NCBI GenBank assembly: GCA_030248215.1
Contig: JASANG010002880.1
Coordinates: 1-64,000 of the forward strand
Direction of reading: 5' to 3'
DNA length: 64,000 nucleotides
DNA from: Enoplolaimus lenunculus
Taxonomy: Eukaryota; Nematoda; Enoplea; Enoplida; Thoracostomopsidae
Below are positions 1 to 57,712 of this stretch, piece after piece. Numbering within the stretch: the stretch's first letter is position 1; every line of letters begins with the position of its first letter. The notes beneath the pieces are model-generated. The model saw only the letters and a list, made by a program, of their open reading frames with translations, ran no database searches and was not told the origin of the DNA. The translations under genes and the position numbers were made by a program.

Positions 1-112
1 AAGCCTAAGCCTAAGCGTTGCAAAAATGTGTTCCTAAGCCTAAGCCTAAGCCTAAGCGTTGCAAAAATGTGTTCCTAAGCCTAAGCCTAAGTCTAAGCTT
101 GAGCAAAAAATG
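1..112. repeat. MITE family A fragment with TTAGGC runs, cut by window edge
   Basis: Runs of CCTAAG (complement of the TTAGGC hexamer) alternate with a short GTTGCAAAAATGTGTT spacer, and the run-plus-spacer unit is repeated. The same run and spacer, followed by an AAAAAATGTAAT stretch, occur inside complete family A elements at 4140-4283 and 24326-24505. This is therefore read as a truncated element and not as a telomere. Its left part lies outside the window. Confidence 0.6.
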
Positions 113-784
113 TAATACACTCAGAATAATTTCTGATCTTTAAGAAAAAATTTCTGACATATAAGAAATATTATTAGCAAGGTGCACTTGAAAAGTGTTT
201 CTGTTATGACAGAAAACTTTTCAAAAAAGTTTTGAAATAAAGTCTAAAAATATACGTCTTCCAGTTATTTTTAGAAAAATTGCCTTAAGTATCTGAAAAA
301 TTTTCAGATTTGCCACAGAAAACACTTTTCTGAATAAATTCAGAAATACTTTTTGTGTTTGTAAAATCTTTCGTTTTCTTTGGAATTTGTAAATTCGAAG
401 CTGCCGAAATATTTGTTAAAATAGGCTTCAAAAGTTTACAAAATTTGCAAATAAAATTGATTCGTCACTTTTTTTAATCCACATCGCACTGGCATTGTAC
501 GCACGATAAAACCACTACTGCTGGCTGTAACCGAAGGTGACGATGCTTCAAAGTGACGTAAACATCAAGTACAAAATCTTACGTAACACAATTTAATTGG
601 TTTATTTTTACAGCAAAGTCCTCAAAGTTTTGTAACAATTTTGTGAATGGAACATCCGGTCCTTTTGCTATTTCTATACAATTCATACAACCTACGTATA
701 TATACTGCAATCAGTATATACAGCATGGCGTGGCCAAGATTTATTTTCAAGAGGGTACGCATAATTTTGTTGTTCTAAAGCGTA

Positions 785-959
785 CACTTTAAAAATAGAG
801 TGAGTCAAATTGACTTTCTCGGAAACAGGCTTTTCCTGACTACACAAACTGAGTCAAAATTCGAACTACACAAATTGAGTCAAAATTTGACTCCACCAGA
901 GTCAATCAGGAAAAGCCTGTTTCCGAGAGAGTCAATTTGACTCACCATTTTTTACAGCG
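785..959. mobile_element. Foldback MITE family E, copy 1
   Basis: The element is nearly a full inverted repeat: one arm carries GAGTCAAATTGACT followed by a GAAACAGGCTTTTCC block, and the other arm is its reverse complement. It is flanked by TA on both sides (783-784 and 960-961), as expected of Tc1/mariner-type insertion. Two further copies lie at 26325-26534 and 60125-60337. There is no coding capacity. Confidence 0.75.
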
Positions 960-3237
960 TACAAAAGTGCTCTTTTGGTCGTCGTTCCTGAGAAATATCA
1001 GCTAAGAATATCTCCTGTGTTTGTATGCGATCATGAAGTGTAGTGAATTATTATTGCAGCAATAATAGCAATGGTTATTTATTTGTGACATTAAGTATTT
1101 TTGCGAAGTTTATGCGCAGTGCCTTCGCTTTTAAATAGTGATATGTTTTTTGAGATATCGCTTGCGACAGCACGACAATGTTAACACAAAAACGGCAGCA
1201 ATTTATTGTTTGAAGAGAAATTGCAATAAATTTGTCAGCATAAAGGTTGTTATATCTGGCCAGGCCACGCTGCAGCTACGAAGTGCAAGAAGCGCATTCT
1301 TTATGGTCATATTTTTCCGTTTAGGCAAACAATTTTCGACACGAGCAATTACCTGCACATGGTGGTAATGAATTGCAGTAGTATACGGTCGCTAAGTTTT
1401 AAAGTTTTTTTCGGGTATGATGATAACCAGTGCCGGAGCATGCTAGGGTGACCCGTTCAAAATTCCGTGGCGAGTGCACCTGGTGATGATCAACATATTT
1501 TTAAAAATTTTTGTTTAAAATCTTGTTTAGAATGTGGGGCCCCTTTTTGGGGCGGGCCCCCCAAATGGGTGGTATGGGGGTGGCTGCTTCGGCTTTGTAA
1601 AGATAACACACACATAATTATAATAAGGGAAGAACTTTATATGTTAATTTCTTACAACCAAAATTCGAAAAGTTTGACAATCTGAAAGCGAAAAAGTACA
1701 TTTTGTAATTTGTCGTTCGTCATAGAACGTTTTAAGATAATTCAACTTTTTAAATTCAAACAAGATGTCGTTCGCAATAGAATTTTAAGCAATTATGTCT
1801 TAGGGATTTGTACACTGCAAATATTGTATAGTCAATTTAATTTACATTTAGACCCGTTAGCTTAATAGCAGAACCAAATTATAAGAGACATCTGCATAAG
1901 TTTCGCGCAAAGATTTTTGCAGGAAATCAACATCCTCATTTCTAGAAAGAAACTATACTTCTTTCAGGCGTTTTTAGCAACAGGTTCTGTGCCATTGTGC
2001 GAGGTCTCGGGTTATGTTTACCGAGATAAACTATCTGTTCTAAATTAAAATTTATGGTCAAATTTTTTAAATTATCATTTGAAACAAATCATTTCCAAAC
2101 GTCTTAATATTAGAAGTAAAACTGTCGTATGCTTTGTAACAATTTATCAGACGACTCTAAAAACGTTTTAAAAACTCGACATGAGCTATATTTATGGGGA
2201 CACCGTGGGAATCTTCGCCCACTCATGGACATATCAACCCGCACTAAATATGGCTCAAAAAATATTTAAACACCATTCTACGGTTGGAAAATTTACCTTA
2301 CCTTCGCTGGACATCTCCTGCCCCCCGTTGACTACCAATGCCTGGTTTCGGGCGCTGTTTGAAAATCGACGTGAAATGCGTAAAGTTCAACCAATTTTTT
2401 GCCGTGTATACTCAAAAGTATGTTTCTTCCCGTATAACACGCTTTCTTGTCTTCTCTTGTACTGCCTCTGACGTTTGTTTTGTTGAGAAATTTTTTTATT
2501 TTAAAGCAATATGCTTACAGTGTTTTTTCGGACATTTTATGTTGCGTTTTTTTCATCTTTTGTTTATAGCTTGGCCTATATTTAAATGTTTTAGGCCTCT
2601 TGAGAAAAAAAGATTCAAAAAGTCTAAGTTTTCAAAAGAGATTAAGTTTACTTGTTATAGCGGCATCATCAACTCTATATTACATGTTTCCGGTACTCGC
2701 TGGTTGGTTGCTTTCGGTTAACTTCCGCCTGTCAGCTTCAGGCCCGTAGCCAGCTCATCTTTTGTTGGAGTGTGAAAGGCTAAAAATTTTTCAGGAAGGG
2801 CATTTAAGGGTTTTCGGCAGCTTCAAGCAATTTTCTAAAATGGTGCAAATTCCGCATAAGTAGTGAACAACAAATTGGTGCCTGTTCCACGCCAGATAAA
2901 TCTTAGGAAGTCCAGTAACTGTTCGTAAAAACGCGGTAAGGAATGGTTGATCTTGTCTCAGATTCATCGTCAAAGTTGTTAGCATGCAGCAACTGACTTG
3001 CTTGAACTAGAACGCTAACGAACCGATAATACTAGAAAATTTCGGTCAAAAATACTGGATATAATACTGGAATCGAAATAGTGAAAAATGCCGAAATTCC
3101 CTACAGGAACAGTCGTTCCAGTTGCAACCACATCATTTCTATTTTAGCTTATAATATATTTATATTTTAATTTTTTTATTTTAGTTTCTATTATATTTAT
3201 ATTTTCTTTTTTACTCTTTTTCTTGGTTCGTTACGAT
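960..3237. other. No recognisable gene; dispersed repeat debris
   Basis: No conserved protein was recognised on either strand. A G-rich block at about 1430-1600 resembles blocks at 14930-15120 and 54870-55015. A block at about 2745-2850 resembles 55440-55560 and, inverted, 4735-4865. Both look like old dispersed repeats. An open frame at 2181-2471 (+) matched no family I know. Confidence 0.5.
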
Positions 3238-6200
3238 ATGATCACAACACGCTGCGTAGTTTCGCTCTTTTTCGGGATTTTTACTATTCTCTGCCAGGTA
3301 CAGGCCGAAATAAACCGTATTGTAATCTGTTTGTAGTACCAAGACTGTATGATGTCCTGTTTTTGTACAAGAGTGTACAACTGGGTACATTTTTGTGTAC
3401 AAAAGAATGTTCCGAGCGCACGTTGCGTTTTTGACCTACCCCTTGTTTAGGAGGGTAAACGTTGCAGGTTTCTTGAACTTACGCCTGTTGGGTGAATTCA
3501 AGCAGATTAGTTCCTCCTCTTATAATCTGCTACCCCCTCCCCTCAAATTGAGGGGTATGTCGAAAAAAATTACAACGCGTGTTGGTACATTTTGTACCAG
3601 CGTAAAAATTGCATGTTTTTGTCCATAGAGTCACCATGGACTGTTAGTAGTACCAAGAGTGGACGATGTGTTCTGAACAAAAGTATGCAACATGCTAAAT
3701 AGCGCACGTGTTTTTACCCTCCCGGAAACACTTTAGGCTGCTGAAGGTTCGATGTAACCGGGAATATAGATAAAGTTGCAATGAAGGTGTCTCAGTTTAT
3801 GTGCGGAATTTCCTAATTAAAACCGTGCTAATTTCAGCTTACCGGCCTGACGAGAGCTGAACAAATTACAATTTCAAGTACAGAATGTGGCAATTATAAA
3901 AGCTGTTGGTTTGAGCCACACGGGTGCGCAACCGGAACCACAGGTGACACCTCAAAGTGTGACTACGGGGTTACTTGGATTAACGACAATGAAGGTGGAA
4001 TTGTTTTTGAGTTGCTTGCCAATGTAACAGGGCTTACTGAAACAGCGTTTTATCCATCCAATTGGGGGTTCTACGTGTCAATTGGTTTTTCTAATGATGA
4101 ATTTATGGTACGTTTGTATCATCGTTCCATTCAAATTTTGGCCAATGTTACTTTTAGGGGCGTAACAGTAGATTAAGCGTATTCCTAAGCCTAAGCCTAA
4201 GCAAAAAATTGTAATCTAGGATCAATACCCACTGTTTTATAGACCCATCAGAAACCTTTATGCCCCTTAAAGTAACATGGGCCCAAATTGGTATGACAAA
4301 CAGCAAACAGCATGTTTGCTTAGTTAGCTGTATAATACATAGAGCCAATTTATAGAACAGGGCCGTAACAATACTATATATAAACATATTTCTAAGTCCA
4401 AGCCTAAGCCTACGCGAAAGAAAGAGCTTACATCTAAGCCTAAGCCTAAGCTTACGCAAAACTGTAGTCTAAAGTTTAATGTTACATTATCGCAGTCCCA
4501 CAGAAAAACGTTCCGCCCCTAATCGTTACATGGGCCGTAGTTAGCAAAGCTCACGCCTAAGGGGCTTGGCTGTACACTGTGGCTGTTTCTAGCGTATAAG
4601 GGCGTGGTTTGGATGATCCACTCGTTGTTGATCCTTTGCCGGTTATATGGATCGACTTTATTCATTCATTATGTAGCAATCTTTACCATAGTTACTTTAA
4701 TATATAATGGAACATGCAGAATTTCGCCCCCATCTCTAGAAAATTTTCAACCTTGCTTGTAAATCATCGAAAACCCTTCAACACCCCCTTCGAAAAAAAT
4801 TTTAGCCTCTCCCACCCCATCTCCTTACAAGATGAGCTGACTACGAGCCTGAGCTGGCCAGGTGCGGATCCAGGCTGCCCTAGGGAAGTATATCTTGCTT
4901 TGCATGGCATCCGAACAGTTTTGCGATGCTGATAGTTGATTTCGTGCTTACAATAAGTTTTCTAGGAAAATCGGTGAAAAATGTTTCAAGCTTATAATAT
5001 AAAATTCAAATATTGTCTGTCTTTGACGCAATATTTTATTTTGAAATAAAGAAAACTTTGCTAAAAACGCGTCTTAAATCTGTTAAAATTCGGAATACAA
5101 AAATGGATCCCTCCCCACATTGAAAAATTGTGAATCTGCAACTGCTTCTAGCTATGTTGTCTAAACGGTAAATATATTCGTTGATGTTTTTGGTAACTTT
5201 ACCGCTTTCTGGTTTGTAATTTATACTGTCTGGTTTTATTTATCTAGCGTGCATACACAATTGCTAATTGCAGGGTGAAGATTCCGTAATTGACTGCGTG
5301 CAATCGCAAACTGGTCCAGTGAAAGCGTTCATTTCGTTTAATGATGATACCGATAACGAAAGGATATACGATGTAAGATGTCTATCATACATAAGCATGG
5401 TCTCATGTTACTTTTATGGCCGTCCCGGTTTCTGATAGGTCTGCAAAACAGTAGGTTTAGATTCTAGACTACATTTTTTGTTTCATATATTCTAGACTAC
5501 ATTTTTTGTTTCTTATATTCTAGACTACATTTTTTGTTTCCCATATTCTAGACTACATTTTTTGCTTAGGCTTAGGCCTAGGTTTACTTTAAGAATACAC
5601 TTTTTTCAACGCTTCGGCCTTTAGGCTTAGGCTTAGGAAGATGATTGCTGAATTAGTGCAAATTTTTAAATGTGTTCGTTTAAAATTTAAAGGTAAAACA
5701 CTGTTTTCTCAGTTAAATTGTTGTAAAATAATGTGATAATCAGATTATAAATGAATAAGAAATAGTGTACTTGAATGGATTCTGAATAAAGCTCTGCCAT
5801 CAGTTTAGGCTTCATTCAAAATGCTGAGTCCGTACCCAAGCAATGATTCGTTAATCGGTGGTTTGTATGATAACCAGCTCCGTTGCCGTGTTAGACGCGT
5901 AATAGCTCCACCTGACGACTTGTCAGACAAGAGCAAAGTATTTCATCTTGACAAACCGTATCGGTTAATGATGGCAAAGGGTGTTGCTGAATCAGCAAGT
6001 AAGCGTTCGTTTACAACGATTTTGAAGCTGCAACTTGGTCGTGCAATAAAGAGAGAATTGGGTGTGACTTATTTTTGTCCATGGATTTTTAATAACATTT
6101 TGAAGTTGGTAGCGCAGTAATTGCTATTGGAAATTTTTGTAGGACGTAACCCTGTGCCGTTTCCAAAATACTGCAGGCTATGTCGCCCGACTGTTGGATA

Positions 6201-9200
6201 GTTGTTTATGACTTCTTGTTATTCACTTTGAGTATAAACGAGTAATTCATAAAGTTTGGAATATACCTGAGTTGGACTGCATGATCCGATCACTGCCGGT
6301 GCAAATTGAACCACACCTGAGTATACTCTGAACGAGGACCGAAACCAAACATTTGTGTCAGGATTTAGTACTAAAATTGCACTCGGATCAGCGTCCACTT
6401 CGGTCGCGAGCTTTTTCCAGTATTATATATTGCGGACCCTGGCATAAACTTAGATTCTCCACCGGTTAATCACTGCCGAATCCATAAATTAACAGTTAGG
6501 TAACTTGTTTAATTTGCATATGACGTTAGCGGGATCCGTGCAAAAGCTAGCGATCCATTTTTGAATTATAAAGGTTAATATTAGTTACGATAGAATAGAC
6601 TCTAAACAACGAGGTAGATTTTCAAATCTCTGATTGAGCTTAGACCCGTCTTCGTTGTCGGTTTTTGTGTTTATGCAAATTTCACAGTATTATGCGTACA
6701 CCAGGTGACTTTTGAGACGGTAGTTTGATGGACACTGATGCTTTTTTTGGCTTCAGTGGTCATTTGCCTCAAAGTCACCTAGTGTACGCATGATATTGTG
6801 AAAATTGCATTATAATAAACGATTTTAAAATATTCAAATTTTCTTTGCCCTCAGAAATATTCATGTACACTTGGTTTGCGGCTTATAGTTTAAAGTAGCA
6901 ATTTTACGACTGACAAAATTAACGTTTTTGACGATATTAAATGAATTCTAGCAAAAATGTTTCTAGCCTCCTTCAAAAATCTTCGCTAACAGTAATATTA
7001 GCAGCGCTTAGTTTTAGGGGCTGGGTGCAGTTTACCACGGCTGCAACACATCAATATCAACGTACAAAACGATAATATATTATTTGGGTAACGGCAATTT
7101 ATTTCCGTCGACATCTGCGGACAAAAATAACGTTTTTGACAGTATTAAAATAATTTTATATTAGCAAAATATCCTTTGTCTTTGCAGGAAACTCTATGGG
7201 GTCCGCTCATTAACAGCTCCTATAGTCTTCTGTGCTGACTGCAGTTATTAATTGTGGTTGCAGAAACATAGCAATTTTAGCATACAAAACGCAAATGCAT
7301 TATTTGGGTGACGGAAATCTATTTCCGTGGACATCCGCGAACAAAATAAACATTGCAGATGGTGCAATATTTCGTATCATCGAAGCGAGTGATCATTATG
7401 TGCTCGGAATTCCACGATCTGTTCAATATTCATTGATTGCTTGGCACGGTAAAAAGCGTATTAACCTTGTAAAAGTTTCAAGGGTGGATACAGAAATTTT
7501 TTTATAAAGTGGGGTCTTAAATTATTGTATAGAACATATTGATATATATTATAGGGTACAACTGAAATTATATAATACCGGAATTGGAACCGGCGCCGCA
7601 ACCGGATAACAAAAAGCACTTGCTACCAAAAAATCGTTTTAAAGCTATTTTATTGCTTTTAATGCTGTAAACACACTATTTAGAACGCCAAAATCCGGAA
7701 ACAAATGCAGTAGCTGCGAAGCGTATAATAAAGTATGGAGTATAACACAAATTTAAAATTTTGGCAATATGCGCTCAGATCATTATTTAAAAAAACTAAT
7801 TAGAATAATATTACCAATTTTCTATAATTTTCGAATAGCAAAAATTTTCAAAGCCAAAAATACCGGAAAACTTCGGTGAAAAAATACTGGATTTATTACC
7901 GGAACCGGATAGGGAAAAATACCGGATTTCCCTACCGGAACCTGATTTCGAGTTGTTTATGCTTGCACTAGTGCTTAAATAGACGTCACTAAAATACAAA
8001 AAATATGTAAATGAGATTTATATTTATCGAACAAAAATGTTGAGATTAAATGGGCCTCATTTCCACACTGCTTTTGAGAAATACCATTCTTGTTCGATAA
8101 ATATAAATCTCATTTACTATTTTTTGTATTTTAGTGACGTCTTTTTAAGCACTAAAATATAAAAATATGTAAATGAGATTTATATTTGTCGAACAAAAAT
8201 GTTGAGATTAAATGGGCCTCATTTCCACACTGCTTTTGAGAAATACCATTTTTGCGTGGAATTTTTAGTTTTTAATTCGATACCTACGTTAGTTGTTTTT
8301 CTTTCGATTTTTTTAAAACTATTGTTAAATTTGGTCCATTTAATCTCAACATTTTTGTGCGATAAGATAAAAAAATCTCATTTGCTAATTTTTTTTTCGT
8401 ATTTTAATGGCGACATTTTAGCACCAATGCCAGCATTGACGTTTTAGGAATATTGATGGTGCTTGCGTGGTGGTTTTTTGGTGCAATCGGAATGCTTTTA
8501 TCGCGTCATTTCAAGAAAAGTTGGCCTGGACGAACAATCTTGGGCGAACAAGTTTGGTTCCAAGTAAGATTTTATATGTTTTAATGCAGCGTTGACAGCA
8601 ACTGTTTCCAGCTGTGCAACAAAAACGTCATTTGGTAAGGTTAACGATGACGTTGTTGGTGCACAGCTGGAAAAAGTGATTGTGACCGCTGCATAAGCCA
8701 CTAATGCTTGATTGAAAATACCTCATGATTGATTTCTTTGGATATAGGGTTTGAATAGGTGTCGCAAATTTTAAATATTTTACATTAAATATATTGCGCT
8801 ATTGTAATTGCAACAAATCGTGTTTCAAGTTGCCAAGCGTTATGCATGGAATAATATTGCACAAATTAGCTAAAATGATGTCCAAATTACATACCGCGGG
8901 TGTTTCAACTCTGAGAAAAATATAAATTTGTTTATATGTTGCATTCAAGGCCCATGTAATGACCAGGGGCGGAACGTTGTTCTGTGGGACTGCGATAGTG
9001 TACGCTTAAGCTTTGGACTTTTTTGCTTGGCTTAGGTTTAGGCTTAGGCTTAGGCTTAGGAATATGATCATTCTTAGGCTTAGTCTTAGGCTTAGGCTTA
9101 GTCTTAGGCTTAGTCTTAGGCTTAGGAATATGATCATTCTTAAGCTTAGTCTTGGGCGGCATAGGCTTAGAAATATGCTTTATAATACTGTTCCGCCCCT

Positions 9201-12200
9201 GTTCTTTATATTCGTCGCATTTAAGAGCATGTAGAGAATGTGTTAAAGCTCAAATTGAAAACTATTTTTACACTGTTTCAGCTACATCGAGGACTATTTA
9301 TAGTATCGGCAATAATTCAAGTCGTTGCATTTGTGTTGGCATTTGTCCAAAACGGCGGGTGGCTTGGAGTATGCTCACGTGCTTGCAGTCGCTCGGTAAA
9401 CAAATGTCATTTTTTTAAACACAGATTTTAGCTGAAGCGGGGTATGATAGGGTTCTGGCGGTCCGTTTATTTTGTCTTGGCATTTTTCAAAACGGCGGAT
9501 GGCTTGGAGTATGCTCACGTGCTTGCAGTCGCTCGGTAATCAAATGTCATTGTGTTAAACACAGATTTTAGTTGAAGTGGGGTATGATAGGACTCTGACG
9601 GTCCGTATATTTTTCACCGTACAGGCTTAAGCTTAGATTAGGTTATGGTTAAAGCGAAAGTTTCGGAAGAGAGTTACCTAGGCTAGTCAGTGCATAGAAG
9701 AGGGTCAGATCATTTTCAGTGGGAGTTAAACTTCAACTTTAGATTAAGTTTTTGTTGAGGCTTCGGATTAGGTTTTAAAATATGCTTGTTCTTACGCTGA
9801 ACCTTTCGCTTGGGCTTACGCTTAAGGGTAGGAATATGATTATATATTGCTACGGCACTCATCTGTACGCTCGTCTTTAAGCCTAAACCTAACCATATTA
9901 AGCCTTACCCTTAAATGTGGTGTGAAACTGTACAAGAACCGCTACAACTTTGTAACAATGATGTAAAACCCAATTCACACGTGCAAGTTTTTGCAGTGAG
10001 AACTCGTAGTGTCAATTTGCACGAAATACTTGCAGCTGCAAGTATTTTCAAAGGAACATTTCGATTGACCAATCAAACTGCAGATGCAACACAATTCAAG
10101 CTACTTGCAACTGCGTTCACCAGCGCGAATTAAATTCAATAGCATGAATTCCAGTGAATAATTTACAACTGCAAGAACTTCAAAGCTGCTTGGCGACCAA
10201 ACTTGCACATGCAATGTGAATATGGTTGTACTCAGGTTTTCGGCAATCACAAAACAGTCTGGCTGAGATATTAAAACAAGCATTTGAATTTTGAAGTTAC
10301 ATAATTTTGTTTAGATTTGAAAAAATTCTTTGAGAACGTTATTCTTAAGTATACCGATTTTACGTTCATTTTGAGTATTTGAATTTCAACGTTTTGAACT
10401 CAGAGTACGTACGATGAACGTTTTACGCATTGAGTATACTATGAATAACATATCGCAAAGTATGTAACTTAAGCGTTACGCTGTTTAGTTGTGCATGTGG
10501 TGATGATAAATGCCAACAAATTATATACTTAAACCAATTTCAAAACAGCCAAATTTCTATATACTTTTCGCTTTTATGCTTTCAGAAAAACATAAGCTAA
10601 TAGTTCAAACAGAGAATCAATTTCAATATTTATTGTTACAGGACAACATCAAACGCGTTCATACCTGGATTGGACTGGCATGCACTGTTGCTGCTGTTTT
10701 GCAAGTAATCATTTATTTGTCAACTAAACGCATATATTGCATTTATATATAGTGTTTGTATCGAGATTCCAGAAGGCAGCAGGAAGCTGCAATTACACTT
10801 TTGCAATTTACCCCGACCACAAATAGCGCATGCGATAACTGAGGGCCGCAGCAGAACAATAAGCATATTTCTAATACCAAGAGTGCATGATACCCTTTAA
10901 CAAGAGTATGCAACTGGGTACATTCTATGTTGAAAAAATGTACCCAGCGCGCGTTGCATTTTTGGCTTACCCCCCTTATTTTGGAGGGTGTGTGTCAAAA
11001 TCTTCATAAATGCTGAAATTCATGTGCTGTTTTAATATACTGAAAAGTGGTTCGGTTATATTTTCGGTGTTGTCTGGCGGATGCACGTGTAATGAACGTA
11101 AAATTGACCCCCCTAAAAGGAGGGGGGTAGGACCAAAACGCAACGAGTGCTGGTAGATTTAGTTCCATGCAAAACAAGGCGTTTTGCATACTCTTGTTTA
11201 AGGGATCATCCACTCTTGCTAATACTAAGCTTCTAAACCTGAAGTCTAAGTCGACACTTAACTCAAAGCAAAACATTTCCACTGTGGTTAGAACTGCAAA
11301 ACTGCCGGTTTGCCGGCGTTAGGATATTGGGTCTTTTTTGTTATCCCCAGCCCGCGTTTGCCTAAATATGGTTTGATTTTGAAAGTTTTGAATATTTGAG
11401 CTTCTTATAAGAACCTCCCCTGAACATTCCACGCATGAAATTGAATTTTTAAAAAATTTGTTTTTAAGCATCGAATGGTATATAATTTATCTACTTTTTT
11501 AAAAAACTGAATTTTTCAAAAATTCAAATTTCGGCGTGGAATGATCAGTGGAGGTCATGAGAACCTCAAATATGCAAAAATTTTCAAAATTGAACCATTT
11601 TGGGCAAACTCGTGCTGGGGGAGGATAATGGAAAAGACAGCATATTCGTCCCCCCAAACTGGGATCCGACGGGTCCCCCCAATTAAATGTTTCACAGCTC
11701 TATAACTTCATGGCCCGCGAAAAATATATAATTTTCATGTTGGAGCACCCAGGGGTCGGAGGCACCCCACTTCCGGGGTTTGGGGGCGCGTCCATTGGCA
11801 TTGATGTTAAGAGGGCACAAAAGTGTGTGAATGCAAGCACAATGTAATGTTTTCAAAAAACAATTGTATGAGACACTGACGTAATTTTCGTTTGGGAACA
11901 TGTGTTCGCTCAGTGTGTTAGAAACAAAAGTGGAATCCGCCTCATAAACTCTCTCAGTTTTGTTTCCAAATGCCGACAGAAGTCTTGGAAAGTAGCCAGC
12001 CAGGAAATTTTTGGAGAACGGCGCCAGGAAGGTTTTGGCAGTTTATAATTTTGAAGTCAAGCTTGAGTGAGAGACACCATGATTTCAGGTTCCGGTTGCT
12101 TTACTACGACCGCCGGCAACGCATCGCCTACGACCGCTGTTCAATATTGGTCATTGGTTCGTCGGGATGGGATCATTTTTACTAGCCAGTTAGTTGGTCT

Positions 12201-15200
12201 AATCTAGAGTGGATGATCACTGTTTGTAACAAGAGTGTGCAACTGGGCACATTCTGTGTATTAAAGAATGTACCAGCACGCGTTGCAGTTTTGTTCGACC
12301 CCCCCCTCAATCAGGGCAGGGGTTTAAGCAGGAGATTAACAGTATGCTTCAGTACACCTACCCCCCCTTAAACAAGGGGATTACAATTTCCTCCTTTACT
12401 ACGATATAAAATTGCATAAAGACCCCACAAAACAAGGGGGGTAGGCCAGAAACGCAACGCGTGCCGGGTACATTGTTTAATACACAGAATGTACCCAGTG
12501 GCACAGTCTTGTTATAAAGAGTGATCATCCACACTTGGTCTAATTAACATTTTTGAGCCTTCTTGGTTCTAAAATTTTTCTAAATTCGTCCTATGTAACT
12601 AATGTTTTAGCTTTTTTCAAAACGTTTATTATTGTCAAACAGCTAAGTGTTAAAATTTGCCTAAAACAGGTCGATGGATATATTTAGTTAAACTGAGAGC
12701 CGATAATGAATTTAACCCTTTCTGACATGAATATTTTCAATTTCCCCTGAGACCTACTTTTATGCTAGGATTCGAACTCCAGTGACTGGAGTGGGAGGCG
12801 TATACCATCACCACTCAGCTATAGGAGCTTGACGCTCGAACCCGAGGGCGCTCTCACGTCTCGTGGTGATTTAGTATTATGTATACGTGTTGCAATTGTT
12901 AAACACGGTGCGATATATACTATTTAACGTATATACACTGCGCTGAGTTGCCTACATGCAACTCAATGTGAGAAGGGGTTAAGACAAAAGTATGCAAGCT
13001 GACAAATGTCATGCGGTACCAAATGTGGTGTTGTTGTTGCCCGACACCTACTTTTTGAGGTATGTTTAGCCCATATTACCAGAAATAGGAGATCCTGCAG
13101 GTGTCCAGTTGCATTTTTTAATCGTAAAAGTACGATATGCCTTTGGTTAAACCAAAAGTGAATAATCACTGAGAGTGTGCAACTTGGTACATTGTAAACC
13201 AAGGGTATATCATACTTTGGTGATAAGAATATACAACTGGGTACGTTGTATCAAGGTAAGAATGTACTCAGTGCGCGTTGCGTTTTTGGCCTACCCCTCT
13301 CTTTCATGTGGACGGGTGATGAAATTTGTTCAAACGGAGAATATACACATCATTCTAGTCACGAAAAAGACATTCGTTTGTATTCTTTAATATGCATTGT
13401 TTCTGTATTCATTTAAAGAAAGCGTTTTGCACGTGCCATGGAACTCTGGGCTCGTATTCTCAAATCCGAATAGCATCTATAACTGGTTAGCGATAGGTTT
13501 TCAAACTGATGAACCTCTGCAGCTGTGAATCTCAAAATTGGTACAGAAGTACGACAAATCAAATGCGAAAATCGTGCTGAATTTCGAGCCTGGTCATACG
13601 GTGATTTGAAAGTTACAAGACCTATCACTAACTGGTAATGAGTGCTAGACCATTTGAGAATACGGGCCCTGAAGTGAGGTGATAGGGCCAAAACGCAAAG
13701 CGTACTGGTACATTGTGTACCGCGTAAAATTATGCAAAGTTGCATTTGTTTCTTCAAGCAGTCATCATCGACTCATGGTTAAACAGATATTCAGCGTAAA
13801 TCAAAAGTTCAAAGTGTTTCAGGTGTCGCCATGTTCACTTCAATAGTACTCGGCAAAAGCGGGCTTTTGTTCCGGTGGACCGGATATGAAATTGATTCGG
13901 TGATGGGCGGATACGTAGCATTTTATATTTTGATTGCAATCCTACTTGAAATATTGACAATGCTTGCTGAAAGGAAAAATAAAGCAACAATTAGTAAGTT
14001 AACAGTTTACTAGTGGGTTGCAATACGCAGCGTGAGGCCTGGCTTCAGCTCTGGCAATAAATTGGATCATTTCCATATCTAGACCTAAGTGACCCGAATA
14101 AGAGGGGGGACTGATATTTATTTGGCTTCTCCAGAGGGTACCCCCCTTGTTATTCGGTTACGGAGTGGTATTTATTTTTAACCCACGCTCCGCCGCCCTT
14201 CGTTACTGATATATCCGGTACTGCAATTATCCGTTGAATTAAACGTTTATTTGTCTTGTGTCAATAGCTTGAGCGACAATACAAGGTTATACTTAGGAAT
14301 GTTTTTTCAAAATTAACGTACGCTTGAAAGTTTCAAACTCAAATTATTTGGTTCCTGGAGTCATTTACGCGCTACAGTTAGGGCTAATTGACATTTATGG
14401 ACTCTAATTAGGGCTTAGGGACTCTATCCACTTACGGACACTTATTAGGGATACGGACTCCTATTGATTCGGACTCAAAATGGTGACCCCCTCTTATTAC
14501 CCCCTCTTATTCGGGTCAATACAGTAGTAAATTTATTGAAATAGACCCACCTATATTCTAATTAATTTGATCAAAACTTGACCAATTTATCTGTTTCCCT
14601 TGTAGTTTGTCTTCAGCGAAAATGCGTGAAGAGGTTAATGCTAGGGCGTATAGCCAGGAAAAGGTTTTTAGGTGTCAAACCCCTTTTGCGATTTCTTTAC
14701 AGGGTCGCGTAGACGCAGTTTCAGTTTGCAACACAAGAAAACACACTTTGAAATTTTTACAAAACTTAACGTCACTTTCCCAATTCCTTGGCTACGCCAA
14801 TAGCTTCATCTATTTCTTTTGTCATTTCAGGACCGGATGATCCGCTAGGATTACTAAGCGGTCCTGTGAGCATGAGGCAAAAATCAGAAAAGAATGCAGT
14901 AAGTGACCCTATAGGTTGTATTGAATGCAGATCCGGGCAGGGGCCGGAACAGGCTAGGGTACCCTTCCTTCCAAAATATCGGGATGATGGCTCCTTGCGA
15001 TGATCAAAATATTTTAAAAAGTTCTGTTTAAAATCTTGTTAGGGTCGGGCTTTTACTTTGAGGTGGGACCCCCAAACGGGGGGGGGGGGCACGGGGGGTG
15101 GCTGCTCCGGCCCTGGATCCAGGTAAGGTATCACATACGTTTTTGGTAATTGTTTTACGTTTCACAATTTACGTCAAGTAAACTGTGTGTAATAGATTCA

Positions 15201-18200
15201 AGTCTGTAGTGGGTCCAACATAGTAAACGGTTGCTAAACAGTTTCGCAGTAGAGTTATGTTCTATCGATCTCTAGCATCGCGAACTCAAAACTTTCCCTG
15301 GGTTCCAAATTTTTCAAGGCAAGTTCAGGCCACCCCTGTCGCTTACCCACGGACCCGTCTCTAGGTTTGTTTTGATTTTCAGTGGTCAACGCTACCTGTA
15401 CCGGTTGCCATAACGACCAGCTCAAAATCAATTTTCTCAGCGGCCAAAACAGCTTCAGAGGGTGAGCAAAATGGAAAAATTACTGCGTCGAATGATACTA
15501 ATTCAATTGAATTGAACGCAGTTGTTGCTAACGGAAGCGCAACTCAACAAAATCATACAACAACAGCAACAACAGCAACAGCTGCCGGAACAAAATTGAA
15601 GCAATACACAAAAGCAGAAGTTGGAAAACACAACTCCGACGATGACTGCTGGGTGATACTGTACGATCGAGTGTATGATGTCACTAAATTTCTTGATGAG
15701 GTGACCAGTGAATATTAGCGTCATAATTATGACGTAATGTTAATTTATTATATATGAAATTTGAATGAGACCCGAATTAAGAGCACAGTGATTGTTGAGA
15801 GCGACTTGTAATTTAAACTTGTGGTATAAGCTAATTTGCCGATATTTTAAAATCTGGAATGTCTGCGACTCGTAATATGTCCGTTGTTCACCTAATTTTT
15901 CTGCTTACAATGCCGTTTAAAAAGAGTTAATAACTGTAAATATTAGCTCGCTCTGAGCTGACTTAATTCCAGTTGAGTTGATGAATTAACTCACAATGAG
16001 TTAAACCAATTCAGAATGAATTCTGAAAAACCTAATTCAGAGCTCGGACTTCTGAGTGAATTTAACTTACTCTAAGTAATATCAACTCAGTGGAATTTAT
16101 AGTGTAGTGAAACTGTTAACTTAGTCATAAAATGTCAACATATTATTGGTTTTATTTTCAGCATCCTGGCGGAGGCGAAGCAATCGTAGACTATGCAGGT
16201 AAATCACTTAAAATTGATGTTGTAAAATGTACAAGAACCACTGTTTTATAGTTAACTATTTTAGATTAATGTAAGTATATGCTTATAGGAATACACACAA
16301 TTAACATTTTAGCAGAATTATGATTTTGCAGGCTTTTTCGGCAAAGCATATACTTCTATTATTTTTGTTTCAGGGTCCGATGGAACACGAGGATTCGAAG
16401 ACTTTGATCATTCTGACTATGCGGCAGAATTAAAAGAAAAATATGTTATTGGAGAAATTGTCGATGTAAGTACTTTGTATTTTATATTGGAAAGGTAATG
16501 TAACTTTTTTATTACCGAATTAATGTGTTCTTGTTGCCTTACTACACACTTAGTAACCGTACTGTAGTTACCCGAATAAGCGGGGGTAATAAAAGGAGGG
16601 TCCCCATTTTGAGTCCCAATCAATAAGAGTCTGTATCTTTAAAAAGAGTCCGTATGCGGATAGAGTCTTTAAACCCTAGTTAGAGTTCATAAATGTCAAT
16701 TATCTCTAATTATAGTGCATAAATGACTGCACCTTGCATTGTCGCTCAAGGTTTTGATACAAGACAAATAAGCGTTTAATTCAACCGATAGTAGCAATAT
16801 CAGATATATATCGGTAACGAAGGGTGGCTGAAGGCGGGTTACAATAAATAACGGTCCCTAGCCAAATAACGCGACGGGTTCCCTCTAGAGAGGCAAAATA
16901 AATCAGTATCCCCCTTTTATTCGGGTCACTACAAGATCAGAAGTATTACGGTAGTGTTATACTTGTCGTACGTTACCGTGCTCCGCTGTCCGTCGCCAAG
17001 TATAGTAAACTAAAACTACTCGCGTACGATACCGCACGGAAACGCATACTGACGCACGGTGAAGTACGGCACCGCGTTTAGTCGTAGAGATTTTCAGATA
17101 CATTAGACGCACCACCCTGTAAATTACAATGAGTTGATTAATCAACTTAGGAAGCGGGTTAGTAAATTTTGGTAATTTTTAAGTTAATAACAATAAATAT
17201 TAATTCACTCTGAATTTTAATTAAATAAATCAAAATCAGTTCAATGAATTCAGAATTCTGAGTTCTGAAAGACCAAATTCAGAAATTAGGTCTTTTTAAG
17301 AACTCCACATTCTGAGTTGATTCAACTCATTCTAAGTTAATTAAACAACTAACACGGAATTAAATCAATCTAGAGTGAATTAATACTTACTTTTATTAAC
17401 TTTACAAATAAAACCAGAAATACAAATAACTTGTTGTCTTTCTAAGTTGATTAATCACGACGCTGTAATTTACAGCGAGCTATGGGAAAAATTTTACATA
17501 CTAAATAGCGCACAGTTAAAACGGAGCTTTAAGAGACTACCACTAAAGACTAACGTTAAATAAAGCCCAATTCACACGTGCAAGTTTTTGCTGCCAGAAT
17601 TCGCAGCTGCAACTTACACTTGCAGGTTTTGTTCGAAACCCAGTTCGAAAAACTTGCAGCTGCAAATAATTCATAAAAAATCGTAGCTATGAATTTAGTT
17701 CAAATGTGTTAACAACCATGTATGTTCACTGAATTTATTGCAGCCGCTTTCTCATTGGCTGATGAAAAAAATGCAAGATCTGCGTGCAATTTGCAGCTGC
17801 AAGTTCTCGCTGCAAAAACTTGCATATGTGAATAGGGCTTTACAATCGACCATGATGTAGTCTTGTAGGCAATATGTAGAATGCAACTGACTCGTCTTTA
17901 AATTAAGTTTGATCAAAACTAAAAGAAATTAGGCTAGTATACTTTGTGGCATTTCAGGCGGAAAAGAAGAATATTAATACCTCAGCGTTTTCCACAATAT
18001 CGCAAGTAAGTTGTTTACTTAAAAAATTTTCAAGTTAAAATTAAAACAATATTTGGGCAATGCTTAATTCTTTGTGCATATGCTATTTGGGTAATATTTA
18101 TAGTTCACTAAAATCTCGTGATGTAATAATGACTTCTTTGCATCAGGCGGCTGCACTGGATTAACCATTGTATATTATTTTCAGTGTACACTTGGCACTC

Positions 18201-20158
18201 AGTTCCTCATAATATTCGTTAAGCGAAAAAATTTAGGCCAATGTGAAGAACAAGGGTGGAACAGTATTATAGGCATATTCCTAAGCCTAAGCCTAAGTGT
18301 AAGAATGAACAAATTGCTAAACCGCTTGTGCTAAACAACTTTAAAGTTCCAATTGTAGGGGCTCCCTGAATTTTCTGCCGACGCCACTTGGTTCCGCGCT
18401 ACATTTTACTCTTAAATGTTGATACAGAAATATTCAACGCGATGGGTGTCAGTGAAATAATGCACAATGTACTGTGTATTACTATAATATAGGTACTACG
18501 TATGACGAAAGATCTATATTTACACTTATATATTGAGGCATATTCGAGACCTCGATTGGTGCCAAGAATTGGCCAAAAGTATCCTTTTAAACACCAAGCG
18601 GGACAAAAGACCGGATACGTTTATCACAGTCATCGGACGTTTGTCGTAGTTTTTCTATCGGATAACTTAATTCTTGGATAGCAACCAACGCCTAAATATG
18701 AGCAAATATGGCCCTTTGTTATGAAACCGTTCTGTGGGGGTTTCTATAAAGCTACATTGTAATTCGCCCAAGGCCAAGCGGATACCGGATATCGTTCAAT
18801 TTACACTACCAGGCTCATCAACTGGAATGTTTTTAGATAATTTATCTTTTATCTGCGTCAGACAACGTTATATTTTGGCGTATCGCACTTTCAAATGAAT
18901 CCCATACTGTACTAACCCAAATAAGAGGGGGTAATAAGAGTGGGTGAGACTCAAGTAATCGGAGTCTGTATTCCTAATAAAAGGCCGTAAGCTGATAGAG
19001 GCCCTAGACCCTAATTAGTCCATAAAATGTCAGTTATTTCAAATCGTAGTGCATGAATGACTACAGCACCAAATACAGTTGAGTTGCAAAGTTTAAAGCA
19101 CACTTAAGTTTTGAAAGTACATTCCTAAGTATAACTTTGCATTATCACTCATGGATTTGATACAAGACAAGTAAACGTATATTTCAACGGATACTTGCAA
19201 TACCGTATATCAGTAACGAGGGCGGGTTTAAAATAAATAACAGTCCGTAACCGAATAACAAGGGGTACCAACTGGAGAGTCGAAATAAATACCAGTCCCC
19301 CCTTTATTGGGGTCACTACAGTACACTCTGAATATCAAGTGGGTTGCCGTCAATCATAATAGCATAGGTTTTTTCTCTGATCCCCCAAACTACGCGTATA
19401 TACAGTATTAAATCTCCACAATGCGTCACAGCTCTCTCGGTCTCAAGCGCCAAGCTCCTATAGCTGAGTGCTGCTGGTAAACACCTTCCACTCGTGAGGC
19501 TACAATACGAGTCCTGGCTTGAAATTATATTTCACACAAAATAAAAAATATTCATGTAAGAGAGGGTCTACGGTGCTAATTTTGAAATTTTAAACCGTAT
19601 CTAATTGATTTCAAAGTTCCGCTTTTAATTTTAGGAACAGAACATTCAAAGAAACACTAGAAGCAATGTGGTAAGTTATATTGCTGAGTATAGGTTAAAT
19701 AATTTCATTAACGCGACATTTTCAAACTGAAAACTGGCAATAGGCATAAAATCTTTAAAAAACTTAAAATGTCAGGAATTCTTTTAATGTTTTTGGTAAT
19801 GGTCAGTTTAGTTACAAGTTCGGAGCAAAAATTTATTCTTAATTAGGCCTGTATATCATTAAAGTCAGGGGATAATTTTTTCTTCCGTGTTCCAGTTTTT
19901 TTATTTTGACTTTTTTCAGGTTTTTTATAAAATTTTTTACTTCTTTTGGTTTTTCAGTTATATTATTATTATTTTTGTTGTTGTTGTTGTTACTTATTTT
20001 TTAAATTTTGTTGTCAGTTTTCATTTTGGTTTGAATTTTTTCATTTGTGTTTTCAGTTTTCAACCTTGAAAATTGTGCTTTTGGCGTTGTTCACTGCTGG
20101 CTCGTTTGCATTTTGCGCTGCGTTATCGTTTATGATTGATGTTTCAAGACATCACTAG
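3238..20158 (+). CDS. DOMON - cytochrome b561 - cytochrome b5 membrane protein (FRRS1/CYBDOM-like), 17 exons, 674 aa
   Basis: Predicted trans-membrane ferric or ascorbate-type reductase. Exons: 3238-3297, 3838-4107, 5274-5372, 5809-5998, 7281-7448, 8448-8563, 9282-9368, 10642-10704, 12089-12188, 13823-13993, 14831-14898, 15383-15700, 16162-16198, 16374-16465, 17958-18005, 19635-19670, 20057-20158. All junctions are in phase and sum to 675 codons. Residues 1-20 are a hydrophobic signal peptide; the DOMON domain spans about 21-235. The b561 core follows, with candidate heme histidines H262 (HGILM), H303 (LHRGLF), H337 (VHTWIGL) and H373 (FNIGHWFVG). A fifth helix lies near 414-433, then a Thr/Ala-rich linker. 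The cytochrome b5 domain (about 535-613) has HPGG H571 and DHSDY H595, 24 residues apart as in b5. A last helix (646-667) ends in DVSRHH. The exon 5 acceptor could instead be at 7272 (same frame). Donors after exons 9 (GTTAGT) and 12 (GTGACC) are weak. FRRS1 relatives that I know lack the b5 domain. Confidence 0.88.
3334..3670. mobile_element. MITE family D, copy 1 (intron 1 of the DOMON gene)
   Basis: The inverted termini carry AGTACCAAGAGTGGA-like and TACAACTGGGTACATT-like blocks, and the middle carries paired CCTACCCC / GGGGTA blocks. Right of it, 3645-3730 looks like a second, truncated copy joined head to tail. Relatives lie at 10872-11224, 12200-12545 and 13150-13790. Non-coding. Confidence 0.6.
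4140..4283. mobile_element. MITE family A, copy with both ends
   Basis: The left end reads GGCCAATGTTACTTTTAGG and the right end is its near reverse complement (CCTTAAAGTAACATGGGCC). Flanks CAAATTTT and CAAATTGG look like a slightly decayed 8-bp target duplication, which suggests hAT-type transposition. The interior holds CCTAAG runs. The element begins about 30 bp after exon 2 of the DOMON gene. Confidence 0.75.
4342..4536. mobile_element. MITE family B, copy 1
   Basis: The termini pair as AGCCAATTTATAGAACAGGG against CCGCCCCTAATCGTTACATG followed by GGCC, and the interior holds TTAGGC-type runs. It is a distinct family from A, with a CAGGGGCGGAAC inner block, but has the same design. It lies 60 bp from a family A copy, in intron 2 of the DOMON gene. 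Confidence 0.6.
5399..5640. mobile_element. MITE family A, truncated, with internal tandem amplification
   Basis: The terminus (TCATGTTACTTTTATGGCC) is recognisable at the left. The interior unit TTCTAGACTACATTTTTTG is repeated four times with a period near 29 bp (about 5459-5563), followed by TTAGGC runs. The other terminus was not found. It starts about 26 bp after exon 3 of the DOMON gene. Confidence 0.6.
6675..6808. mobile_element. Short foldback element, intron 4 of the DOMON gene
   Basis: Arms of about 40 bp pair across a short loop: GCAAATTTCACAGTATTATG on the left matches the reverse complement of CATGATATTGTGAAAATTGC on the right, and both arms carry a GTACACCAGGTGACTTTGAG-type block. 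Only one copy was seen here. Confidence 0.6.
7560..7950. repeat. ACCGGA-rich degenerate repeat
   Basis: Many copies of ACCGGA/TCCGGT-like words occur at both ends of this stretch. The composition resembles the hAT-type element at 35683-36101, which is also built of CCGGAATT/AATTCCGG words. Clear termini and a target duplication were not found, so it may be a decayed relative. Confidence 0.35.
7975..8410. repeat. Nested inverted and direct repeat block, intron 5 of the DOMON gene
   Basis: A segment with TAAATGAGATTTATATTT and a GTTGAGATTAAATGGGCCTC block appears at about 8007-8080 and again at 8172-8252. Inverted copies of its arms lie at about 8091-8140 and 8335-8395. The layout suggests a foldback element that was tandemly copied. 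The block ends about 40 bp before exon 6. Confidence 0.5.
8949..9216. mobile_element. MITE family B, copy 2, with the longest TTAGGC runs
   Basis: The left end is GGCCCATGTAATGACCAGGG followed by CGGAAC; the right inner end is GTTCCGCCCCTGTTCTTTAT. Between them lie two long TTAGGC-type arrays separated by AATATGATCATTC, apparently one array duplicated. The element lies just upstream of exon 7 of the DOMON gene. Confidence 0.65.
9330..9612 (+). repeat. Tandem duplication (~141 bp) of an exon end and its donor
   Basis: The last ~35 bp of DOMON-gene exon 7, its 5' splice site and about 100 bp of intron are repeated once, with a period of 141-142 bp. The second copy has point differences and one base fewer in the coding part, so its copy of the exon end is out of frame. 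The first copy is contiguous with the rest of exon 7 and is taken as functional. Confidence 0.8.
9964..10230. mobile_element. MITE family F, copy 1
   Basis: The termini pair as TAAAACCCAATTCACACGTG against the diverged reverse complement at the right (TTGCACATGCAATGTGAATA). The interior is rich in CAGCTGCAAG words. Related copies: 17561-17842 and 58463-58740. Located in intron 7 of the DOMON gene. Confidence 0.6.
10872..11224. mobile_element. MITE family D, copy 2
   Basis: The long inverted termini (about 100 bp) start TAATACCAAGAGTGCATGAT and end with the reverse complement ATCATCCACTCTTGCTAATA. Inner blocks GGCTTACCCCCCTTATTTTG and its inverted partner are present. Located in intron 8 of the DOMON gene. 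Confidence 0.65.
11331..11639. mobile_element. Foldback MITE family G, copy 1
   Basis: GTCTTTTTTGTTATCCCCAG at the left pairs with CTGGGGGAGGATAATGGAAA followed by AGAC at the right. The arms also share a TTTTGAAAGTTTTGAATATT block and the AGAACCTC block. A very short derivative lies at 62807-62889 and a partial one near 53925-54010. Confidence 0.6.
12200..12545. mobile_element. MITE family D, copy 3
   Basis: Inverted termini with AGAGTGGATGATCACTGTTT at the left and GAGTGATCATCCACACTTGG at the right, plus AAGAGTGTGCAACTGGGCAC and its inverted partner. It begins about 12 bp downstream of exon 9 of the DOMON gene, next to a weak (GTTAGT) donor. Confidence 0.65.
12714..12894 (-). mobile_element. 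tRNA-derived SINE, copy 1
   Basis: Read on the - strand, the head is AAGCTCCTATAGCTGAGTGG (pol III A box type), followed by a B box (GAGTTCGAATCCTAG). The tail has a GAAAATATTCATG block and AAAGGGTTAA. The same order is seen at 19405-19568 and 61135-61281, and in diverged form at 53592-53720. Confidence 0.6.
13150..13790. mobile_element. MITE family D, copy 4, with a second foldback inserted
   Basis: Family D ends (GAGTGTGCAACTTGGTACAT at the left; inverted GTACATTGTGTACC near 13710 at the right) enclose a separate foldback at about 13449-13671. Its arms are GGGCTCGTATTCTCAAAT and ATTTGAGAATACGGGCCC. A single arm of that inner family recurs near 44698. The block ends about 35 bp before exon 10 of the DOMON gene. 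Confidence 0.5.
14083..14526. mobile_element. MITE family C, copy 1
   Basis: The left end AAGTGACCCGAATAAGAGGG pairs with CCCTCTTATTCGGGTCAATA followed by CAGTA at the right. The interior carries CGCCGCCCTTCGTTACTGAT and TTGTCTTGTGTCAATAGCTT blocks shared with five more copies in the window. The left tip has diverged. Intron 10 of the DOMON gene. Confidence 0.7.
14930..15120. repeat. G-rich dispersed repeat
   Basis: The stretch has a GATGATCAAAATATTTTAAA block, a GTTTAAAATCTTGTTAGG block and a G run followed by GGTGGCTGCTCCGGCCCTGG. The same order is seen at about 1430-1600 and partly at 54870-55015. No termini were identified. Confidence 0.45.
15930..16110. repeat. GAGTTAA/TTAACTC-rich degenerate repeat
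   Basis: Short words such as GAGTTAA, GAATTAACTCA and CAGAATGAATTC recur on both strands. The word set resembles 17114-17480. It occupies intron 12, inside the cytochrome b5-coding part of the DOMON gene. Confidence 0.4.
16562..16933. mobile_element. MITE family C, copy 2
   Basis: The left end TA|CTGTAGTTACCCGAATAA pairs with the right end TTTTATTCGGGTCACTACA. Interior blocks are shared with 29065-29495 in the same orientation (opposite to 14083-14526). Intron 14 of the DOMON gene. Confidence 0.7.
17114..17480. repeat. Inverted-repeat element with TTGATTAATCAACTT ends
   Basis: The ends carry CTGTAAATTACAATGAGTTG and, inverted, AATCACGACGCTGTAATTTA followed by CAG. The interior is made of AACTCA/TGAGTT-like words. 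It has a TIR-like layout and no coding content. Confidence 0.45.
17561..17842. mobile_element. MITE family F, copy 2 (best preserved)
   Basis: The left end TAAAGCCCAATTCACACGTG followed by CAAGTTTTTGC pairs with GCAAAAACTTGCATATGTGA followed by ATAGGGCTTTA. CAGCTGCAAG words occur along both arms. Intron 14 of the DOMON gene, about 115 bp before exon 15. Confidence 0.7.
18242..18310. repeat. Truncated family B fragment with TTAGGC run
   Basis: GAACAAGGGTGGAACAGTAT is followed by an ATATTCCTAAGCCTAAGCC-type run. This resembles one end of the family B elements; the other end is missing. Confidence 0.45.
18907..19321. mobile_element. MITE family C, copy 3
   Basis: The left end TA|CTGTACTAACCCAAATAA pairs with the right end TTTATTGGGGTCACTACAG|TA, leaving TA at both flanks (18905-18906 and 19322-19323). 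The interior matches the other copies. Length 415 bp, intron 15 of the DOMON gene. Confidence 0.75.
19405..19568 (+). mobile_element. tRNA-derived SINE, copy 2
   Basis: The head AAGCTCCTATAGCTGAGTGC has a B-box-like region (ATACGAGTCCTGG) and the same AATATTCATGTAAGAGAGGG tail as the copies at 12714-12894 and 61135-61281. It lies in intron 15 of the DOMON gene, about 67 bp before exon 16. Confidence 0.55.
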
Positions 20159-20725: not shown

Positions 20726-23700
20726 TTAAATTTTGCTCGGACAACAATTTCCGCTCAACCAAATGTCGGAAGTACAATCGCCACCCGGATATCGCATCTC
20801 GTGAGCAAGTGCTGGTCCATCTGGTTCCGTACTGAAATCGACCAAAAAGTTCCGGTCCAGCTTCATTCCACCCAAAACTGTATCTATATCAAGCTTGAGC
20901 AACGACGACCCGTATCTGACGTATTAAAAACCAATTTATACTAATTCGGATGTAACCAAAAGTGGAAGAACAGGAACCGGAAACCAACTAATTTTACCGG
21001 GACTGTCGGAACATCGGCTAGAGATGAAGCAAAAATTTGCTTTTATATTCCTAATCCAAAGCCTACGCGTCAACCTCAGCGAACGGGTATGTAAACTTAA
21101 GTATAACGCCTAACCCTAAGCATAAAATTAGTCTGATGCTTAAGCTTATATACTCTATTAAATTCCCATGGAAAAACTGTTCGCCCTAAGCGCTGTATTA
21201 CTATACTTACTTATAGGCAAGAATGTGGTAATTTTGACACATTATCGTCATATATAATGCTATTAATTAAAAAGAAAAAAACAAGGACGGGTAACGGTAA
21301 AGGAATTTTGCGCGGGTAAAGGCGGGTAACGGGTAAAGAAATTTTGTGCTGTATACCCACGATTAAAAATATAATTTCCGCTTGTTAATGCGCAGCGCGG
21401 GTGAAAAACTCTTTACTCACTTACACATCTCTGCTGCCAATGTACCTATAGAACACGGCTGCGACAGTGGTATAAGCATTTTTCTAAGCCTAAGCCTAAA
21501 AACCTCAGCGTATAGAAATGAGCTTGTATATACTCATGCCTAAAGCCTAGGTCTAAGCTTAGGCAAAAAATTAGTCTAAAGCTGAAGCTTACACTGTTGC
21601 AGTCGGCAACAAAACGTTCCGAAATTCATCTTTGCATTAGCCCATATATTAAGCATATACCAGTGCAAAAAATCTAGTGAAAAATATTTTTGTGGCTAGC
21701 CAAATGCAGGTACAGTGTACGAAATATCTATATAACTGTTGTAAAACTAATTAAGCTGGCTGAAAAAATGTCGATTTTGAGGAAGTTCTCTGTGAAAACT
21801 ACAGCCTCCAAAGCTAACTGTCCAGCAATTATGCTCAGTGGCCAATGTTTTAAAACCGGCAGCCAAAATTAGGTTCAACAATGCTTGCTGAGAAAACCGT
21901 TTTTGGTGTTTAGACTTACTTTGGAAGGTTAGAATAAAACTGGTTGTCCCAAACTGAAAACAACGAATTGGTAACGTATAAACGTTTGCCGTCCAAGCTT
22001 AACTGAAGCATTTGTGGCCCGCCGTGTATTTTGTTGCCTTTCACGTAAAGTTCATCTGGTTGAGCCTAAAAAGATAATTTAACGTTTGACAAATCTGAAA
22101 TTAATATTTATCCCAATAACACATTTAGGATTGCATTATACTGTGCGTCTTGTGTCTGTACAAAGTGCAGTTGAAGCTGCCTTCGGATGCTGTGATGATC
22201 TGACTAAGAGTGAGGACTGATATAAATTTTGCTTATCCAGAGGGAACCCCCGTCTGTTATTCGATTACGGACTGTTATTTTTAAATTCACCTCATGTTAG
22301 TTCGGTTCAAAACCCTTCGTTCTCCTATTTTGGGCAGAAGTGACATGCTCAGAAGCATTTTTGCTGACTGCCATGTCTGTTAAACTTTTTGTTTATTTAG
22401 CAATGTTTATGCTTGTAGCCTGAGTGCATGTTACATATTTGAGCCGCCTATGTTTTTCTTCTGGTTTGGTTTCTTTTATGGACTCTAATTAGCAGTTAAG
22501 AAAACTATCCACCACCGGACACTCAAATTTGGTTTACAATCTAATATTCATTACTTCTCAAAATGGGGACCCTTTTATTACACCCCTCTCTTTTTATTTG
22601 GGTCTCTGTAGTAAAAACACTAATGTCAGAAAACGTGGCATAACCCTAGCTCAGCAAGGCAAAAAGCTATAGTTTATTCGTATATACAATAATTTTTTTA
22701 AATTTACCTTATTAAAGTGGGGTATATAAAAAATTAGAAACAGTGTTCGTCTCGCGGGTTACTTCGTAAAATACTTACCATTAATTCTGGATCCCTGGTT
22801 ACGGTAACTCCTGAATTTTTGCATAAACTTCCGCCAATAAAAACCTAAACAATGAAATACATGAAGATGCAAGAATTTATACCCGGATCTCTATCCGATT
22901 GTTGTCTAATTGTGGACAAAAGATCAATTATGATTTGCTGAAAAGTGTAAGGATTTTAGTTAAAACTAAAGCGTACTGTATTTCCGTTTTCTCGGAAAGC
23001 CTGAATTTATTTCCTACATAACATAGAAATACGGAAAGTAAACACTGCACTTTTGTAGCTCCTTCACAGTGGAACAGTCCACTCCTCCACAAATGGCCCA
23101 GCGTCTTAACAGTATCATAAGCATATTTCTATACGCTAAACCTTTTTGAAATCAAATCCGAAAATCATTGCATTAAAACAAACAAACAAACGTTTTCCCG
23201 TTATTTGTTGAAAATTGTCTTAAATATCAAAAAAGCGCTTCATTTTTGCCGCTGAAAATACTTTTCTGAATAAATTCAAAAATACTTTTTTGTGTTGTTA
23301 TCTAAAAGAAATGCTAAGTTTCAGAGCTCGACAGTAATATTTGCATTAATACTCACGAGCACGAATATTAATATTAGCAAATTCCAAGTTCCTGCGGTAC
23401 GGTGTTCAACTCTAGTATCGGTACCGGTATCTTAATATCGGTATATCAGCATTTTACAAGATCGGTTCAACACTAATGTACAAATATTACACCGGAAATG
23501 AATCTATGGGCCACGTGCCTATTAGTAACATATTATATACCTAAATTTCTAAATAAAATACTCTATATATAGAAGAATTAATCTGCTGTTGTTTAATAGA
23601 AGATACCTACTTTTATTGTTTAAAATTTTGACGTATAGGTTGTTAAATGTAACACAAAAATTGCAAATATTTTAGAAACGTTTGAGGAAATAAATAATAA

Positions 23701-54528: not shown

Positions 54529-57712
<3,184 letters not shown>

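Follow-up and report, generated by a model that had tools for sequence, protein, structure and literature searches.

Electron conduits of the CYBDOM class, which join a DOMON domain to a cytochrome b561 core, are already known. The plant protein HYP1 of Arabidopsis carries electrons from cytosolic ascorbate to ferric and cupric compounds outside the cell, with three b hemes as the proposed conduit. In animal CYBDOMs the number of helices is even, with a sixth helix past the b561 core (PMC10691727), and in the DOMONs of the Drosophila representative, CG8399, heme is probably bound by a methionine and a histidine, with a serine and two aspartates near the methionine (PMC10691727). The source of the electrons that pass through b561 proteins is debated: ascorbate is the standard donor, yet studies of redox potentials suggest that it is not sufficient to explain the supply in full, and in 2025 a protein donor, the cytochrome b5 Firewood, was proposed (PMC12218971), so that transfer from b5 to b561 in trans is now on record. 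In Drosophila, ferric reduction by the b561 proteins Fire and Fire-like rises about 1.5-fold with Firewood, provided that the heme histidines of Firewood, H39 and H63, are intact, and loss of firewood impairs iron reduction in the gut (PMC12218971); a cytosolic b5 donor for b561 is thus no longer purely hypothetical. Here we describe a locus, within a 64-kb stretch of DNA (the window), that probably represents one gene for a CYBDOM-type conduit, similar to FRRS1/SDR2 and CG8399, into which a complete b5 has been inserted between helices 5 and 6.

We built the gene model anew and independently from the DNA letters; an earlier, sequence-only reading served as a guide to its end coordinates and domains. 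Seventeen exons on the forward strand, all with GT/AG sites and matching phases, join into one open frame from 3238 to 20158, as that reading had proposed. Two starts are available for exon 5. With the start at 7281 the product has 674 aa and contains H262, H303, H337, H373, H571 and H595, exactly the six histidine numbers given previously, which identifies the earlier model as the 7281 version; with the start at 7359 it has 648 aa, and all residue numbers shift by 26. Among the 16 acceptors of the gene, 13 end in TTTCAG or TTTTAG, a form that we associate with nematodes.

The predicted protein opens with an N terminus that is signal-peptide-like by hydropathy, encoded with the ATG start codon in exon 1 (3238-3297; MITTRCVVSLFFGIFTILCQ, hydrophobic core, donor CAG/GTACAG). 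Exons 2 (3838-4107; TTTCAG acceptor, phase 0), 3 (5274-5372; phase 0 in and out) and 4 (5809-5998; phase 0 to 1) encode the first, middle and last parts of the DOMON, which Pfam places at residues 95-201. The match (24.5-26.9 bits, E 3e-5 to 6e-6) falls under the 32.7-bit cut-off; it lies at the expected place, upstream of the b561 core, and reaches the end of the profile. The earlier assignment of a signal peptide and a DOMON is thereby upheld, with a hydrophobic N terminus and a weak, sub-cut-off domain match. By sequence the DOMON has no match among solved structures, and Pfam finds no reeler domain in this protein, a domain of some animal CYBDOMs that is not general to the class. Exon 2 ends at M110 within the motif SNDEFM/GED, whose residues S105, D107, M110 and D113 reproduce the S-x-D-x-x-M-x-x-D arrangement of CG8399 and the S/D/M/D motif of CYBDOM DOMONs. 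Together with a candidate heme histidine further on, H213 (in TQMH), this motif makes heme binding by the DOMON likely.

That histidine exists only if exon 5 (7281-7448, encoding the end of the DOMON and the start of helix 1) begins at 7281; from 7359, the ligand region of the DOMON holds no histidine. H213 lies 103 residues past M110 and 49 ahead of H262, the first b561 histidine, and the equivalent distances, derived from published residue numbers, are 93 and 30 in CG8399 (PMC10691727) and 84 and 37 in HYP1. The acceptor at 7281 scores 9.5 bits against 3.4 bits for 7359 under a matrix that counts 7281 itself among its 14 training acceptors, and 7.1 under a matrix trained on the 7359 model. 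The stronger acceptor and the DOMON histidine lead us to prefer 7281, but only tentatively, the segment 7281-7354 being duplicated DNA: 7045-7134 and 7265-7354 form a tandem duplication, 79% identical at an offset of 220, which adjoins the 5' part of exon 5 and may extend over it. The duplication could be a decayed exon copy.

The b561 core is matched by Pfam at 41.4 bits (Cytochrom_B561; cut-off 23). Its four histidines, H262, H303, H337 and H373, align with residues 50, 86, 120 and 159 of the human Dcytb chain (5zle), positions that we take to be the ligands of its two hemes, and alignment and hydropathy locate them in TM1-TM4; all four candidate ligands named in the sequence-only reading therefore align with ligand positions of Dcytb. 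H262 is encoded in exon 5, H303 in helix 2 (exon 7, 9282-9368), H337 in helix 3 (exon 8, 10642-10704) and H373 in helix 4 (exon 9, 12089-12188, which also encodes the second cytosolic loop). The last 39 nt of exon 7 (9330-9368) have a second copy, about 90% alike, in the next intron at 9471-9508. The spacing of the histidines, 41/34/36, is near 41/30/36, the spacing in CG8399 as calculated from the residue numbers that PMC10691727 gives. Exon 6 (8448-8563), placed by its phases, completes helix 1 and supplies the first cytosolic loop with R282, K285, W299 and F300, residues that match CG8399 and HYP1; with R358, P359, R366 and N370 of the second loop, these CYBDOM signature residues are all kept. 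Relative to the heme histidines (H1-H4), the signature comprises W/F at H2-4/-3, R-P at H3+21/+22, N at H4-3 and basic residues at H1+23 and H4-7, positions characteristic of CG8399-type proteins (PMC10691727), which assigns the core to the CYBDOM class and not to the single-domain b561 proteins; unlike the CYBDOM signature, H3+24 is A and not P. In the model of HYP1, several of these positions belong to the ascorbate pocket, and the ascorbate-site residues K285, R358, R366 and N370 are kept. Viral and prokaryotic contigs yielded no relatives of the core, as expected for an animal gene.

Downstream of the core, in the Pfam order DOMON, Cytochrom_B561, Cyt-b5, lies a b5 domain of about 75 aa that matches its profile at 87.4 bits (E 7e-25; cut-off 23.7). 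It begins in exon 12 (15383-15700), after a low-complexity linker of about 70 aa, the match starting at residue 514 of the 648-aa model; exon 13 (16162-16198) encodes the HPGG motif with H571, and exon 14 (16374-16465) the second heme ligand, H595, and the end of the domain. Alignment to solved b5 structures agrees with Pfam in giving the domain both heme histidines, as previously described. It is of the typical microsomal type, and the solved structures closest to it are ordinary cytochromes b5, the best match being 2ibj, which we take to be housefly b5. Linkers of about 95 residues before it and about 30 after it flank the domain, the latter including exons 15 (17958-18005; TTTCAG/GTAAGT, phase 0) and 16 (19635-19670; TTTTAG/GTAAGT, phase 0). 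Exon 17 (20057-20158; TTTCAG acceptor) encodes a sixth membrane helix (hydropathy peak 2.16), a short tail and the stop codon. This helix presumably resembles the C-terminal helix of human FRRS1, a likeness that is not counted as evidence here.

By hydropathy, the b561 part has five helices and a single further one follows b5, the count first proposed for this protein, and the even number of animal CYBDOMs holds here as well. The accompanying statement that FRRS1-type proteins stop after b561 has to be corrected, since animal CYBDOMs carry a sixth helix beyond the core (PMC10691727). Because the only sixth helix here is found past b5, b5 would be inserted in the cytosolic TM5-TM6 loop, a position that strengthens the case for one gene. 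With the DOMON outside, helices 1 to 5 would place b5 in the cytosol and helix 6 would return the chain to the outside; loops 1-2 and 3-4 are the more positively charged, as expected of cytosolic loops, which fits the cytosolic b5 of the sequence-only reading.

Whether b561 and b5 belong to one transcript turns on exons 10 and 11. Exon 10 (13823-13993) encodes the remainder of helix 4, helix 5 and the start of the cytosolic loop, and ends in a perfect donor, TTA/GTAAGT. The acceptor of exon 11 (14831-14898), the exon that encodes the link RPDDPLGLLSGPVSMRQKSEKNA between b561 and b5, outscores all others in the window, both strands included (128 kb scanned), under a matrix trained without it. 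The exon is open, its entry phase of 1 and exit phase of 0 are those that exons 10 and 12 demand, and it ends in a GTAAGT donor. Of 1000 gaps simulated with a Markov model, none contained an equally good bridge, and 36 contained some bridge that passed the weakest real sites; among 77 real pieces of non-gene DNA the counts were 0 and 1. Exon 11 is a real exon, beyond chance. A direct join from exon 10 to 15441 would keep the phase, but the acceptor there is weak (5.2 bits). A single transcript is very probably the source of both parts, in one chain with or without an additional short form, as judged from the letters of the locus.

Two neighbouring genes are unlikely. Such an arrangement would have a CYBDOM ending just past exon 10, where the frame runs on through KATISKLTVY to a TAG at 14011 and a polyadenylation signal at 14056, followed by a tail-anchored b5 starting from the in-frame ATG at 14872 in exon 11, perhaps after spliced-leader trans-splicing; exon 11's acceptor could receive a spliced leader without conflict with the bridge simulations. 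That ATG is the sole plausible separate start, the b5 exons having no in-frame ATG from 15364 until inside the last helix and other first exons scoring poorly. The AATAAA lies 43 nt past the stop, a chance of about 5-6% given 72 occurrences on the strand in 64 kb, and a b5 with one helix has the build of a tail-anchored b5. Two genes would, however, leave the perfect donor of exon 10 useless; GTAAGT occurs only 16 times on this strand in 64 kb, five times as a donor of this gene, which puts at about 1% the chance of finding one no more than some 60 nt from a terminal stop. They would also make the phase match and openness of exon 11 a matter of luck, give the CYBDOM five helices against the even number in animals, equip b5 with about 80 extra N-terminal residues, which is unusual, and require that two redox genes linked in function be neighbours by coincidence or as an operon. 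Equally improbable in our estimate is one gene with two forms, in which splicing of intron 10 yields the fusion and its retention a short CYBDOM without b5 and the sixth helix (possible alternative end 14011-14061, forward strand, with TAG at 14011-14013 and AATAAA at 14056): the frame is open into the intron up to these signals, but such a form would go without helix 6.

In the single-chain fusion that we favour, the best-supported reading of the domains, ligands and bridge and the one first proposed for this locus, electrons would run from b5 through b561 to the DOMON. The DOMON would lie outside the cell or in a lumen, and the b561 core would carry two hemes across the membrane. On its linkers in the cytosol, b5, most likely reduced by cytosolic NADH-cytochrome b5 reductase, would swing to the cytosolic b561 heme and pass on its electron, which would then move to the outer b561 heme, the DOMON heme and finally ferric iron or another outside acceptor. 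The b5/b561 partnership would so be brought into one chain, with a fourth heme at the cytosolic end of a CYBDOM. Typical redox potentials place NADH below b5, and b5 (near 0 mV) below the b561 and DOMON hemes, which favours outward flow from b5. Since the ascorbate pocket is intact, the protein may use both donors, and b5 may not be the main one. It is rather unlikely that b5 is not the donor at all, ascorbate reducing b561 while b5 draws off electrons for the cytosol or acts as a heme-dependent switch: retention of K285, R358, R366 and N370 and the use of cytosolic ascorbate by HYP1 speak for that arrangement, whereas the typical potentials and the role of Firewood as a donor in flies (PMC12218971) speak for b5.

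The surroundings of the gene limit its extent. Downstream, on the opposite strand, lies a selenium-binding protein homologue (SBP56 matches, 21916-29837), which confines the end of the gene to the interval from 20158 to about 21.9 kb. Pfam searches with single exons further identified an SNF2/helicase (39613-43689, forward), a tetraspanin just under the cut-off (52911-53447, reverse), SRP54 (56603-57709, forward) and a neurotransmitter-gated channel (63575-63970, reverse). A long purine-rich low-complexity tract at 50085-50758 carries open frames on both strands, the longest of 220 aa. A MITE-like repeat family of about 0.44 kb, with copies 70-86% alike in both orientations and ACCCGAATAAGAGGGGG-like ends, occurs at 14088-14526, 16557-16933, 18902-19323, 29055-29497 and 27282-27435; several copies lie in introns of the fusion gene and explain part of their length.

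A literature search that reached a minority of subscription papers found no description of a DOMON-b561-b5 fusion; nematode databases may well contain relatives that are not annotated. Tentatively, and with rather more doubt than confidence, the protein may represent an undescribed class of animal reductase, a b561-DOMON conduit with its own cytosolic b5 donor that couples NADH directly to extracellular metal reduction and bypasses ascorbate. If so, a natural fusion would provide independent evolutionary evidence for b5 as a general electron donor of b561, the presence of b5 within a b561-DOMON loop suggesting that the two work jointly. It would also place donor and conduit in one expressible protein, in which a two-residue mutant would separate the route through b5 from that through ascorbate; should the DNA come from a parasitic nematode, the finding may also bear on iron acquisition by such worms.

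Among known systems, FRRS1/SDR2 and CG8399 share with this protein the signal peptide, the DOMON methionine motif, the b561 signature residues of TM1-TM4, the sixth helix and predicted extracellular ends, and differ in that here a b5 of about 75 aa with long linkers occupies the TM5-TM6 loop and a reeler domain was not found. In the plant CYBDOMs HYP1 and CRR, too, three hemes would lead from the cytosol through b561 to the DOMON, and the ascorbate-pocket residues are the same, but HYP1 is modelled with five helices and no b5, and its demonstrated donor is ascorbate. FRE-type reductases with a DOMON, from Naegleria and oomycetes, likewise fuse a transmembrane heme reductase to an extracellular DOMON, although theirs is a ferric reductase domain of the FRE/NOX superfamily and not b561, and b5 is not reported in them (PMC3591440). 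The b5 part resembles microsomal and tail-anchored b5 in its fold, both heme histidines and the C-terminal helix that follows, whereas here a linker without methionine and five more helices precede it in the same frame. As with Firewood and its partners, b5 would supply electrons to a b561 ferric reductase; unlike here, Firewood, Fire and Fire-like are separate proteins, and neither Fire nor Fire-like is the fly's CYBDOM, which is CG8399.
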